Shown here one piece after another: positions 5,803 through 10,878 of a stretch of 64,000 bases of DNA. The stretch's first letter is position 1. Each line of letters starts with the position of its first letter. This DNA comes from an uncultured Bryobacteraceae bacterium. GTDB lineage: Bacteria; Acidobacteriota; Terriglobia; Bryobacterales; Bryobacteraceae. Below the pieces are notes generated by a model. The model saw nothing but the letters and a program-made list of their open reading frames with translations. It ran no database searches and was not told where the DNA came from. The translations under genes and the position numbers were made by a program. Location of the stretch: positions 1 through 64,000 of the forward strand of contig CALJAM010000030.1 of assembly GCA_938027685.1 (NCBI GenBank), in the 5' to 3' direction.

Positions 5803-6119
5803 ACCGCGCCGCAATGTGCCGGAGGGCCTCCAGCTCACCAAGAGGCTGAGTTGGGTCTGAAGCGAGCCCGATTCCGGGCCCGAAGTTCGCCATGGAAGAT
5901 TGGGAGGGGAAACCGTAGGGGTTCGTGGGGTCCCATAGGGCGGCCAGGCAGGCCGGCAAGCGGGTGCGGCGCTGTTGCCGGCCGGTTCAGTGGCGGGCCA
6001 CGAAAGGCGACGTGGATCAGGCAAGGAGACGCAGGCCGCCATCGCTGGTCCGATAATAAGTATTATGTAAACTTCTGCCCGGTGGGTCTCCTCCCTCCTC
6101 CTGTGCTAGATTGGCTCCC

Positions 6120-7496
6120 ATGATCGCAGGCTCCGCGGTCCTCAAGGACCCTTACGGCCTTGACCCTGCCGACATCCAGTCACCGCCCCGCGGCCTTCCG
6201 GCCATCCTTCGCCGCATCGGCCCGGGCATGATCCTCTGCGCGTCCATTGTCGGCTCGGGCGAGTTGATCGCCACGACGGCGTTGGGCGCGCAAGTCGGTT
6301 ACACGGCGCTCTGGGTCATTCTGCTCAGTTGCTTCGTCAAGCCCATCGTGCAGGCCGAGATGGGCCGTTACACGATTGCCACCGGCGAGACGGGCTTGGC
6401 GGCGTTCGATCAGGTTCCGGGACCGCGCTGGCGCGTCAACTGGATCGTTTGGGCCTGGGCGGCCATGGTGTCCATTACTCTGTTCCAGGTCGGCGCCATG
6501 TACGCCGGCGTCTCGCAGGTCATGCACTCGCTTCTGCCGGCGGTTCCCATCAATGCCTGGGTGGTGCTGTTGCTGGCCCTGACGCTGGCGTTGCTTCTCG
6601 GTGGCGGCTACCAACGGATCGAGCGGCTGGCCATGGTCAAGGTCGGCCTGTTCACGATGCTCACGGTTCTCGCGGCGATCCTGATGACGCGGATGCCGCA
6701 GTACTTTTCTTGGCGCCAGCTTCTGGAAGGGCTCAAGTTGAGGTTGCCTCCCGGCGGGCTGACGCGCGCCGTGGGCGTTTTTGGGATCACGGGCGTGGGG
6801 GCCACGGAGTTCTTCATGTACCCGTACTGGTGCGTCGAAAAGGGATACGCGCGTTTCACAGGGCGACGTGACGGAACCGAGTCGTGGCGCGCCCGCGCCT
6901 TGGGCTGGATCCGCGTCATGCAGGTGGACATCTTCGCTTCGATGCTGATCTACACGGTGGCTACAGTCGCTTTTTATCTGCTGGGCGCAGGCATCCTCCA
7001 CGGCATGGGGCTGCGCCCCGCCGCCGATGCCATGATCGCGGTGCTTTCGAACATGTACACGCAGACGCTGGGAGGCTGGGCGCTGTGGGTGTTCTACGCA
7101 GGCGCCATCGCCACGCTCTACGGGACCGTCTTCGCGGCTACGGCGGCGCACTCGCGCCTGTACGCCGACATGGTCCGACTGATGGGTTTCTTCCCTGCCG
7201 GCGACTACCGGGCACGACTGCGCTGGCGCAGTCGCTTTGTATGGCTGCTGACCATCGTGCCGGCCATCCTTTACTGGATCTTTCGCGAGCCCGTGGGTAT
7301 GGTTTTCGTGGGCGGTCTGGCGCAGTTTCTCATGATTCCCGTGATCGCCGCCGGAACACTGTATCTGCGCCACCGCCGACTTCCGCGTGAAGTCAGGCCC
7401 TCGACCCTCACCACTCTGGCGGTCTGGTGCGCCTCCCTGGTCATCGGGGCCCTCATGGTTTACTACGTACTCCGCCAGCTGGGCCGGATCCTTTAG
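6120..7496 (+). CDS. Nramp-family-like divalent metal/ion transporter, non-canonical
   Basis: Polytopic membrane protein of Nramp type (GPGMILCASIVGSGELIATTALGAQVGYTALWVILLSCFVKPIVQAEMGRYTIATGE). Canonical DPGN and MPHN motifs are replaced. Confidence 0.78.
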   Translation: MIAGSAVLKDPYGLDPADIQSPPRGLPAILRRIGPGMILCASIVGSGELIATTALGAQVGYTALWVILLSCFVKPIVQAEMGRYTIATGETGLAAFDQVPGPRWRVNWIVWAWAAMVSITLFQVGAMYAGVSQVMHSLLPAVPINAWVVLLLALTLALLLGGGYQRIERLAMVKVGLFTMLTVLAAILMTRMPQYFSWRQLLEGLKLRLPPGGLTRAVGVFGITGVGATEFFMYPYWCVEKGYARFTGRRDGTESWRARALGWIRVMQVDIFASMLIYTVATVAFYLLGAGILHGMGLRPAADAMIAVLSNMYTQTLGGWALWVFYAGAIATLYGTVFAATAAHSRLYADMVRLMGFFPAGDYRARLRWRSRFVWLLTIVPAILYWIFREPVGMVFVGGLAQFLMIPVIAAGTLYLRHRRLPREVRPSTLTTLAVWCASLVIGALMVYYVLRQLGRIL

Positions 7497-7740: not shown

Positions 7741-9870
7741 CTAGAACCGCAGGCGAATGCCTCCATTGAGGACGCGGCCCTCCAGAGGCGCCCAGGCGTC
7801 CACCGTCCAGCGACCGTCCACACCGCGAGTCGGGCGGAGCAATGGATTCCAACGCGTTTGCCGGACGTCCGTTACATTCTCGGCGTTGAAGAAGAGCCGG
7901 ACGAGGCCGATGCGACGCTCCGCCATCACGCCGAACACAAGGTAGGGCTCCGATTCCGAACGGTAGGGATTGTGCTCGAGACGCTGACGGCCGGTGTAGA
8001 AAGCCTCGAGGCCAACGCGCCAGGCGGCTTCCTTCTCCCATAATACGGTCAGTGCGAGGCTTTGACGGGGCGTCAGCGGGACATCGACGCGTTCGCCCTT
8101 GTCCTCTTTTCGTGAGCGAACGAAGGTGTAGCTGGCCAAGGCGAAAAACGGCGCCTTCTTCCACGTTCCGAGCAGCTCCAGCCCGGCATTCGTGCTTGGC
8201 CGGGGCAGATTCAGGATTTCATAGCGCTCATCGGCCCTCACCTCAATGGGGTGCCGCACGCTGAAACCAAAGAGCGTGGCTGTGAACGAGGCCGGGCCAA
8301 CATTCCGCGTCAGATCGAAGGACGCGCCACGCCCTCGTTCCGGCTCCAGCGGGGCAACCAGGGTTAGGCGCGAGAGCCCTGCGGCCTCGGTTTCTTCGGT
8401 CAAGGGCGTGGGCGCCGAGAAACCCTGACCGGCTGAGAAACGGCTGATCCAGCCCTTCCAGCGCAGCAGCGCGGAAAGTCGGGGACTCAGGAACGTACCA
8501 TAGCGGCCGTGAAAATCGGCGCGTGCGCCGGCCGAAAGCGAGAGCCAGGAACCAAAGTCGACGTCATCCTGGAGAAACACGCCGGGCGTAGTGTAGCCGT
8601 AGGCGAAGCGAGGAACGTCACGAGGCCGATAAGACTCCCGCTCGACCGCCAATCCTGCCACCAGGGTATGGCGGTCAATGGCGCCCCGAACCGCCAGTTC
8701 TCCGAAGAACAAGTCGTGGCGATCGCGCTCCTGAACCTCGCCAAATCGGTGGTCATGTCGCTGAGTGGAGACTGCGAAGCGTGTGGTGACCACGCGTCGG
8801 TTCTCGATCAGCCACTGCACGTTGCCGCCCAGATCGTACCGACGCGTGTGCAACGCTTCCCTGTAAGGCAAGCCGGTGGCAGGCAGAACGGACCCAGCCA
8901 TTGTGCCCCCCTGGCGGTTCTCATACGTAACGCCACCCGTAAGCAAGCTGGTGCGTCCCTGGCCGCCATCCCAGAAGAGCCGCGGCTTCACAACGCGGCG
9001 GGTGTAGCCTGCCAGGTCCGCCCATCCGTCTTCGTCAATGTCGTTTGGCCGCTGGTGGTGGACGCCGGCGAGCAACGAAGCGCTCCATCGGGAGCTCAAA
9101 GGCGAAGCCAGAAACAGCGGTAAATCCGTGGCGCCCCGGCTCGACTGGTTGGCGAGGAACTCCAGCGTCGGCTCCGACCCTGGTCGCCGCGAGATCAGGT
9201 TGATAATGCCGGCCATCGCTCCAGCGCCATACAGGGCTGAGGATACGCCCTTGATCACCTCGACCTGGCCAAGATCCATAGGCGGTATCTGCAGGATTCC
9301 CAGCCCGGCACCCTGTTGGCCGAACAGGGGCAGGCCGTCGGCCAGGAAGCGTGTGTGGCGCCCCTTCATTCCCTGGATGCGGATGCTCGCCGCGCCCAGG
9401 GACGGTGAGTTCGTCTGCACACGCAGGCCTCCCATTTCATTCAGCAGCATCACAATGTCGCCGGGCGTCATCAGCATCTTTTCTTCGATCTCGTCCCGGT
9501 CCAGCACTTCGACCCGCGCCGGCGAGTCCTGAATCCTGCGGTCTGTCCGAGTCGCAGAGACAGTGATCTCTTCTTTGACCGGCTGCATCGGCTGGAGCTC
9601 GATCAGCAGATGCCACACACGCGCTTCGCCTACGGTGAGCGACGCGGATGCCGGAAGGAAGCCCTGCTTCCACACCATGACCTCCACCTTGCCGAGAGCA
9701 ACCGGCACCACGACGATGCCATCCCGATCCGTTTCCGTGGAGACACCGCCAACCCTCACGCTGGCGCCCGGAACGGGAGCTGCGCCCGCCCTTACCTCGA
9801 TGCGGATCGCGGCACTCTCTTGTGGGAGGCCCAACGCCAACAGGCCAAAGGCTGCAACCAAAATGCTCAC
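7741..9870 (-). CDS. TonB-dependent outer-membrane receptor with N-terminal carboxypeptidase-regulatory-like domain
   Basis: EEITVSATRTDRRIQDSPARVEVLDRDEIEEKM (TonB box/plug), ALYGAGAMAGIINLISRRPG, beta-barrel ending in ...NGGIRLRF. ORF extends to an upstream ATG at 9984, but GTG 9870 (VSILVAAFGLLALGLPQESAA signal peptide) is a better start. Confidence 0.92.
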   Translation of the reverse strand: MSILVAAFGLLALGLPQESAAIRIEVRAGAAPVPGASVRVGGVSTETDRDGIVVVPVALGKVEVMVWKQGFLPASASLTVGEARVWHLLIELQPMQPVKEEITVSATRTDRRIQDSPARVEVLDRDEIEEKMLMTPGDIVMLLNEMGGLRVQTNSPSLGAASIRIQGMKGRHTRFLADGLPLFGQQGAGLGILQIPPMDLGQVEVIKGVSSALYGAGAMAGIINLISRRPGSEPTLEFLANQSSRGATDLPLFLASPLSSRWSASLLAGVHHQRPNDIDEDGWADLAGYTRRVVKPRLFWDGGQGRTSLLTGGVTYENRQGGTMAGSVLPATGLPYREALHTRRYDLGGNVQWLIENRRVVTTRFAVSTQRHDHRFGEVQERDRHDLFFGELAVRGAIDRHTLVAGLAVERESYRPRDVPRFAYGYTTPGVFLQDDVDFGSWLSLSAGARADFHGRYGTFLSPRLSALLRWKGWISRFSAGQGFSAPTPLTEETEAAGLSRLTLVAPLEPERGRGASFDLTRNVGPASFTATLFGFSVRHPIEVRADERYEILNLPRPSTNAGLELLGTWKKAPFFALASYTFVRSRKEDKGERVDVPLTPRQSLALTVLWEKEAAWRVGLEAFYTGRQRLEHNPYRSESEPYLVFGVMAERRIGLVRLFFNAENVTDVRQTRWNPLLRPTRGVDGRWTVDAWAPLEGRVLNGGIRLRF

Positions 9871-9946
9871 GCGAAACGCGAACCCCGTGAGCTCATCAGA
9901 GAACGGGCCGTTGCAGGGGCGCAGCGACGTCCCCTGTAACCGAGGG

Positions 9947-10051
9947 TTAGCGGCAGAATGGGCATGGTGGACAAGCGGGGCCAAATGAACCCCACACCCT
10001 AGTCACCAGCGCCACAAACCCGAGGGACAGCAGCAACCAGAATTTTCGCAT
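9947..10051 (-). CDS. 34-aa Cys-rich exported-looking mini-protein (not in ORF track)
   Basis: MRKFWLLLSLGFVALVTRVWGSFGPACPPCPFCR*. Preceded by GGGAAAGGAGGTCAAGGAAATG, i.e. AAGGAGGT about 7 nt from the ATG. Lies between merR-like and tonB-like genes, same strand. Confidence 0.6.
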   Translation of the reverse strand: MRKFWLLLSLGFVALVTRVWGSFGPACPPCPFCR

Positions 10052-10499
10052 TTCCTTGACCTCCTTTCCCGAGCCCTGCGGCCAGTGGGGGTAGACCCTC
10101 GATGACGCAGCAGATCTCCGAGGGCTTCATAGGCGGGCAGGGTAGCTTCGCGGCTGTTTCGAGCCGGAAGAGCTCCAGTCTGCGTCGGACGGCCGAAAGC
10201 AACTTTATCTGCTGCTCAACCGCCAGGATTTTTTCTCCTGTCCACCGTACTACCTCGGGGCACGGGTCCAGGCCTTCCTCAGCCATTCTCAGAACCTTAG
10301 CGATCTGCTTCAAGGTGAGGCCGATGCCCTTGGCCTTCTGGATGAACTCAACCCGCCGGATGCTATCCGGGCCAAAAAGCCTGTAACCGGTGTGAGTCCG
10401 TTTGGCCCGAGGCAGCAGGCCCAGGCTTTCCCAGTATCGGAGCGTTTTGCCTGAAACGCCTGTTGTCTTCGCCAGATCGGAAATCCTTAACGCCCTCAT
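9999..10499 (-). CDS. MerR-family metal-responsive-type transcriptional regulator
   Basis: MRALRISDLAKTTGVSGKTLRYWESLGLLPRAKRTHTGYRLFGPDSIRRVEFIQKAKGIGLTLKQIAKVL; Cys at DPCPEVV and LPCPPMKPSEICCVIEG as in metal-sensing MerR proteins. Alternative start 10511. Confidence 0.93.
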   Translation of the reverse strand: MRALRISDLAKTTGVSGKTLRYWESLGLLPRAKRTHTGYRLFGPDSIRRVEFIQKAKGIGLTLKQIAKVLRMAEEGLDPCPEVVRWTGEKILAVEQQIKLLSAVRRRLELFRLETAAKLPCPPMKPSEICCVIEGLPPLAAGLGKGGQGNAKILVAAVPRVCGAGD

Positions 10500-10514
10500 G
10501 GATCTCCCCATACA

Positions 10515-10545
10515 GAATAAACCTTCCAGCGACGGGAAGGTGCAA
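10515..10545 (-). promoter_or_regulatory. MerR/CueR-like operator-promoter
   Basis: Perfect dyad ACCTTCC-N7-GGAAGGT (10521-10541). On the minus strand it is flanked by TTGCAC (-35) and TTATTC (-10) with the 19-bp spacer typical of MerR-type promoters. Confidence 0.8.
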
Positions 10546-10747: not shown

Positions 10748-10878
10748 GAGCTTGTTGACAAATTCTTTGCGGCGCTCCGCGCGGCCGGGTGATCTTGCGT
10801 CCGTTCATGCCAAATCAATCGTTTGTAGCACTTAGTAAGTCTGGCTGTAGTTGTGTGGGCGACTTTTTCAACAAGCTC
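10748..10878. mobile_element. second MITE-like element (131 bp)
   Basis: Left end GAGCTTGTTGACAAA, right end TTTTTCAACAAGCTC: 10-bp perfect terminal inverted repeat GAGCTTGTTG. Flanks TTAG/TGAG. Confidence 0.65.

Follow-up and report, generated by a model that had tools for sequence, protein, structure and literature searches.

A predicted exported cysteine peptide between a MerR-type regulator and a TonB receptor in a Bryobacteraceae genome, and an apparently undescribed family of CxPC peptides

Periplasmic metal carriers of the MerP/HMA type are exported, contain cysteines and stand under MerR control, and the methanobactin-type copper-binding peptides have a short cysteine-containing precursor near a TonB receptor. 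Promoters of the MerR class follow a spacer rule of 19-20 bp (PMC1526738), and the signal of the copper sensor CueR has been published as ACCTTCCC-(5)-TGGAAGGT, with ACCTTCC-N7-GGAAGGT as its form at E. coli PcopA (PMC1526738, PMC10187127, PMC9004249). The locus described here lies in a stretch of 64,000 nucleotides (the window) from the genome of an uncultured Bryobacteraceae bacterium. It resembles the CueR/MerR metal-sensor operons (COG0789; PMC1526738, PMC10187127) in its MerR-type helix-turn-helix domain, in its metal-site cysteine triad and in an ACCTTCC-N7-GGAAGGT operator set between the promoter elements from which the regulator itself is transcribed. Unlike those operons, it combines the regulator with a 34-aa peptide and a TonB receptor rather than with CopA, ZntA, CadA or MerTPA exporters or enzymes.

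The MerR-family metal-sensor gene (9999-10511, minus strand; true start probably the ATG at 10499) was classified with Pfam and NCBIfam models, the Pfam scores being 6.5e-18 for MerR_1, 6.7e-14 for MerR and 8.4e-11 for MerR-DNA-bind, and its nearest solved relative is 4ua1, a MerR regulatory protein. In the alignment to 4ua1, Cys84, Cys125 and Cys134 (numbering of the 170-aa ORF) fall on the three metal-site cysteines, a cysteine being present at all three of the MerR positions C79, C114 and C123. These three cysteines are the established metal ligands of MerR. On the window protein, the scores of the ZntR, MerR, CadR and CueR models fall within 69-77 bits, under every equivalog cut-off, with ZntR, MerR and CadR slightly above CueR, and no relative above about 42% identity was found in 632 genomes, plasmids and a GTDB contig scan. 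Just upstream of the gene, at its promoter, lies a perfect 7-7-7 dyad, ACCTTCCCGTCGCTGGAAGGT (10521-10541, minus strand), which equals both the published CueR signal and the E. coli PcopA form. With up to two mismatches allowed, for which 0.15 matches would be expected, the window contains no second copy of the dyad, and it is absent from all other loci fetched, including 780 kb of the same genome. A -10-like TATTCT, read from the sequence (10514-10519, minus strand), follows it immediately, and the spacer from TTGCAC at 10545-10540 to TATTCT is about 20 bp, the -35/-10 assignment being approximate; the palindrome at 10521-10541 thus sits within a promoter spacer of the 19-20 bp kind. A generic sigma-70 scan, which covered 16-18 bp spacers only, returned no promoter match. 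The dyad is a probable autoregulatory operator of a MerR-peptide-TonB transcript. Because sensor cysteines, operator dyad and -10-like element are all present, a metal-responsive, autoregulated merR-peptide-tonB transcript is well supported as a design. The metal-sensor class assigned to the regulator in the first-pass annotation is borne out by the retained cysteine triad, by 4ua1 as nearest relative and by the CueR-type operator at its own promoter. Sensor and operator together indicate no one metal, the operator being CueR-like and the cysteine set MerR/ZntR-like. Upstream of the MerR promoter, an 18-nt inverted repeat, GAGCTTGTTGACAAATTC / GACTTTTTCAACAAGCTC, at 10748-10765 and 10861-10878 looks like worn insertion-sequence ends; given this repeat, acquisition of the MerR block from elsewhere is possible.

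Between regulator and receptor, positions 9947-10051 of the minus strand encode MRKFWLLLSLGFVALVTRVWGSFGPACPPCPFCR*, an ORF of 34 codons that the first-pass annotation had reported as unlisted and that is found exactly as described. The start signal, previously called a near-perfect Shine-Dalgarno (SD) sequence some 7 nt before the ATG, is AAGGAGGT (10066-10059, minus strand) with a 7-nt spacer, and it lies inside the 3' coding extension of MerR. The predicted overlap with the MerR 3' end in another frame amounts to 53 nt, and part of the peptide DNA is shared with that frame because the start lies inside the MerR coding sequence. The N-terminus is signal-peptide-like, which supports the earlier impression of export, and the signal-peptidase motif is weak (VWG before the cut and S after it). 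The predicted mature tail, about SFGPACPPCPFCR, holds three cysteines, a CxPCP motif and a terminal Arg; with its third cysteine, CPPCPFC forms an end rich in proline and cysteine. Like the MerP/HMA carriers, the peptide is predicted to be exported, cysteine-containing and MerR-controlled, but MerP measures about 70-90 aa and has an HMA fold, whereas the 34-aa window peptide has no HMA match in Pfam. It also recalls the methanobactin-type peptides as a short cysteine-containing precursor near a TonB receptor; unlike these, it has no recognised modification enzyme among its classified neighbours, and its N-terminus is of the signal-peptide rather than the leader type.

As had been proposed, the peptide ends upstream of the probable receptor start: its stop precedes a likely GTG near 9861 by about 86 nt. 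Such a place between two genes would also suit a leader or coupling ORF, the translation of which carries ribosomes across the MerR-TonB junction or senses the supply of cysteine or proline while the peptide itself is inert, and the CPPCPFC end could slow ribosomes. The distance of about 86 nt to the receptor start argues against this, as do the absence of a conserved RNA family and of a clear terminator or antiterminator there and a signal-peptide-like N-terminus that a leader would not need, and we consider the leader role very improbable. A search of the region for Rfam elements and riboswitches gave only a sub-threshold snoRNA match.

The TonB-dependent receptor ORF (7741-9984, minus strand; plug, barrel and an N-terminal CarboxypepD_reg-like domain in Pfam/NCBIfam) is open from a TTG at 9984. 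Together, merR, the peptide ORF and the receptor gene lie on one strand, overlapping or closely spaced. Their suggested co-transcription is plausible from the shared strand, the only terminator-like match, close to the TonB start, being weak and no better than chance. Eight other genomes of the family, including two of the same genus, encode orthologues of the receptor with 61-74% identity over extended alignments. Where the sequence upstream of an orthologue could be read, it contains neither the peptide nor a co-directional MerR; by names read from sequence, a ThiC-like ORF (G475) and a uroporphyrinogen-methyltransferase-like ORF (G405) are found upstream instead. The sensor-peptide-receptor set envisaged in the first-pass annotation is therefore not conserved, and a conserved MerR-peptide-TonB module was rejected, this gene order being found in this genome only; the genomes searched hold no orthologous MerR-TonB locus in which the frame could be compared. 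In G486 (L043), an orthologue lies near a cation-efflux-like ORF and a divergent MerR-type gene, names again taken from the sequence, which may place the same receptor in a further metal-related setting. In the window, an NRAMP-family transporter gene (6111-7496, plus strand) is convergent with the receptor gene; it was dismissed as a conserved partner, being not within 1.5 kb of the receptor orthologues. The classified neighbours of the peptide are MerR, the TonB receptor, the NRAMP-type transporter and an FkbM methyltransferase, some ORFs being unnamed.

Homologues of the window peptide were found neither in 396 genomes of the phylum Acidobacteriota nor in 237 of the family. The plasmid search likewise gave no match, and a plasmid-borne metal gene was rejected on that result. 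A partial match in G506 (E 0.006; TVALVQ...SCPPCACEYWG) has no SD ahead of its ORF and was taken as chance. In another Acidobacteriota family, at L036 (G323:C2, about 164817-168206), a MerR gene is directly followed by a strong-SD exported peptide, MSRIRRLMLLVFLSAALGTGVLYGFKASGNPSSCPGRIVCPLTGKLICRDACPITK, and further downstream by a second MerR and a MerT-like ORF. This peptide is 56-58 aa long, has four cysteines (CPGRIVCPLTGKLICRDACP), ends in SCPGRIVCPLTGKLICRDACPITK and matches no model in Pfam or NCBIfam; the plasmid search returned nothing beyond weak chance similarities, and the peptide is possibly an unnamed mercury-operon peptide. It shares with the window peptide the position immediately after a MerR gene, a strong SD, a single hydrophobic N-terminus and a Cys-Pro-rich tail, but it is longer, has one more cysteine and keeps other company, so that the likeness is one of layout, not of sequence.

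The host genome itself provides a measure of how rare such a start signal is. In a 780-kb background sample of the same genome, 20 of the 11,722 ATG starts that open at least 20 codons lead into a 20-70 aa ORF behind an SD of at least six bases, and three of these 20 are hydrophobic: a TatA-like protein, the window peptide and, on contig 32, MYRLLFAILLIAQTLGFATVASSSEAEPIPICFPCPDGR, the product of a conserved CxPCP peptide gene, which ends in CFPCPDGR. A frame-free pattern (SD, ATG, then CxPCP 66-96 bases on) matches exactly two places in the whole 3.9-Mb genome, namely the window peptide and the contig 32 peptide, and the reversed-pattern control matches none. The 34-codon ORF could nevertheless be a chance frame, untranslated or non-functional, that runs over the merR 3' extension behind a fortuitous SD-like purine run. 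Its SD does sit in MerR coding sequence, no conservation appeared anywhere searched, and 17 of the 20 strong-SD small ORFs show no gene-like sign; moreover, a selection effect is to be expected because striking ORFs were picked from many windows. This has to be set against the very rare joint occurrence of a near-perfect SD, optimal spacing, a signal-like N-terminus, CxPCP and a terminal R, and against the TatA-like gene and the conserved peptide gene that make up the other two hydrophobic strong-SD ORFs. Those two look like real genes. We judge translation of the window ORF quite likely and a chance frame unlikely, and the product is probably a genuine small exported cysteine peptide, specific to its lineage, within an operon of metal type.

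Our best explanation, tentative as it is, is therefore a real lineage-specific small gene inside a metal-responsive transcript that runs from MerR through the peptide to the TonB receptor, with the peptide in a periplasmic soft-metal or thiol role. The three-cysteine sensor would bind its own CueR-type operator, residues and operator both being visible in the DNA, and binding of a soft metal of the Cu(I)/Ag(I)/Hg(II) class would turn the transcript on. Judging from the strength of the SD and the company it keeps, ribosomes would initiate inside the merR end and produce the 34-aa precursor, the N-terminus of which would direct Sec export and leave about 13 residues as the mature peptide. In the periplasm, the three cysteines might serve as a soft-metal ligand or as a thiol/disulfide peptide beside the receptor, and the peptide may act as a metallophore or metal ligand. 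The L036 locus lends this explanation a precedent in layout, with MerR followed by an SD-preceded exported peptide; the lack of a homologue, the unique gene order, the start inside MerR coding sequence, the weak signal-peptidase motif and the lack of indication of any single metal were counted against it.

The contig 32 peptide belongs to a larger group. When 237 family genomes were searched with the SD-ATG-CxPCP pattern and the listed matches were fetched, at least about 35 short ORFs proved plainly related, with a signal peptide followed by [D/E]xPxPxC(F/L/W/Y/N)PCP and often in tandem; the peptides expected from this family include PIPICFPCPDGR and ILPVPDCWPCADD. The common core of this Bryobacterales CxPC family is P-x-P-x-C-(F/L/W/Y)-P-C. 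One to five gene copies occur per locus, including four nearly identical tandem genes at L147, and a single precursor holds up to eight cores: two at L198, three at L203 and L204, four at L243, six at L238, seven at L240 and eight at L246, as in the repeated KILPVPDCWPCADD with variable linkers. Among 64 cores, P(-2), C(0) and C(+3) do not vary, owing to how the cores were collected, while P(-4) is present in 63/64, P(+2) in 62/64 and F, L, W or Y at +1 in 57/64. Some loci have the loop variants CMPGC, CDPHC or CGAAENPC, and 49 of 81 precursors end in R. An odd variant at the canonical locus L219, MRRKLVLAALLMVQLFLLPAMEGFCCDPPPCPECCPDGDLCPK, has six tail cysteines. The family loci are L174-L250 from a GTDB scan, L135-L165, and the host genome's own copy at G000:C32 (L099, 828-947, minus strand). 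Comparison of this own-genome gene with that of G475 gave pS 0.57 and pN 0.08; between genus mates, purifying selection acts on the CxPC peptide gene.

The canonical locus comprises a UbiX-type flavoprotein, an XRE-type regulator, a divergent 155-aa protein, the peptide gene or genes, a 260-aa membrane protein and a 175-aa protein, and neither the peptide nor the 155-, 260- and 175-aa proteins have a Pfam match. With the 155-aa protein as query, the GTDB scan yielded 77 loci, mostly from Bryobacterales MAGs. Sixty-one have enough upstream sequence; peptide and membrane protein are both present in 49, the membrane protein accompanies slightly variant peptides in two (L182, L186), the peptide occurs without a recognised membrane protein in four, and neither was found by our criteria in six, although one of these, L226, carries a variant of the peptide. 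The 155-aa protein has paralogues at G000:C7:71686-72129 (minus strand) and at L245, L248 and L250, and at these last three loci neither peptide nor membrane protein was found. A dyad, GTTCYGAATTCRGAA, between the divergent 155-aa and peptide genes matches at 13 or more of 15 positions in 35 of 64 loci (L178, L180 and L184 among them), against a maximum of 11/15 in shuffles and 12/15 in coding controls, and may be the operator to which the nearby XRE-type regulator or the 155-aa protein binds. AlphaFold2 models the membrane protein as seven long helices plus a C-terminal helix (7-TM; pLDDT 91.8) and the 155-aa protein as a mainly alpha fold (pLDDT 89.1). A known fold was sought for both, and no PDB entry matched at E <= 0.001; the best matches to the 7-TM model were GPCR and rhodopsin chains at E 0.07-1. 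Literature searches for acidobacterial peptides of this type and for bacterial pheromones with repeated cores yielded nothing relevant. Support for the family as such is good, and it is apparently previously undescribed; in the most economical reading, its peptides would be exported, processed and disulfide-looped, and the 7-TM protein would be their receptor or maturation partner.

This raises the question of whether the window peptide arose from that family by divergence and relocation, in which case it would have shed its canonical neighbours and come under metal control. Precursors of the family are probably processed and disulfide-looped outside the cytoplasm and would act as a signal or effector with the 7-TM partner. 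The same genome holds a bona fide member on contig C32, and the window peptide matches the family in size and in a common architecture of strong SD, signal-peptide-like N-terminus of about 21 residues, short CxPC tail with P(-2), C, P(+2), C(+3) and P(+4), and terminal Arg. No other short signal-peptide ORF with an in-frame CxPCP was seen off the canonical locus among the family-genome matches listed and fetched, nor among the fetched matches from 187 Acidobacteriota genomes of other families. In addition, its DNA from the SD through the spacer to the second codon is identical at 17 of 18 positions to the canonical gene of the genus mate G405, an alignment score that 4.4% of control gene starts match. 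At the level of protein sequence the likeness ends. Membership was examined by a 63-member profile with leave-one-locus-out scores, by shuffles and by DNA alignment. On the profile, the own-genome member scores 49.4 bits and left-out members at least 27.2, but the window peptide scores 2.6, no better than its tail-shuffled versions. It lacks P(-4) and the aromatic residue or Leu at +1, has a third cysteine, and does not resemble the member in its own genome at the DNA level. Near the window, on contig C30, there is no 7-TM or 155-aa partner, the own-genome copies being on contigs C7 and C32, and the GTTCYGAATTCRGAA operator is absent. Filing the peptide in the family by its shared motif was therefore rejected: it belongs by architecture and not by sequence, and we regard its membership, its descent from the family and the loss of canonical neighbours in favour of metal control each as doubtful. 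Somewhat more doubtful still is the fuller proposal that a relocated member of an undescribed exported, disulfide-looped peptide system was recruited into a metal-responsive TonB operon.

If the window ORF is translated, a 34-codon exported cysteine peptide joins a metal-responsive TonB operon, and small genes of this kind are missed by standard annotation. If the peptide is indeed a relocated CxPC member, the same peptide system would work in its own regulon and in the handling of metals as well. The window peptide is of interest above all for having led to an apparently new peptide family, which has a strict P-x-P-x-C-x-P-C core, up to eight repeats per precursor, up to five tandem genes, a high-confidence seven-helix membrane protein and a palindromic candidate operator. 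The layout of the CxPC loci resembles that of repeat-core pheromone precursors, an analogy under which it would offer a testable candidate for peptide signalling in a phylum where we found none described.
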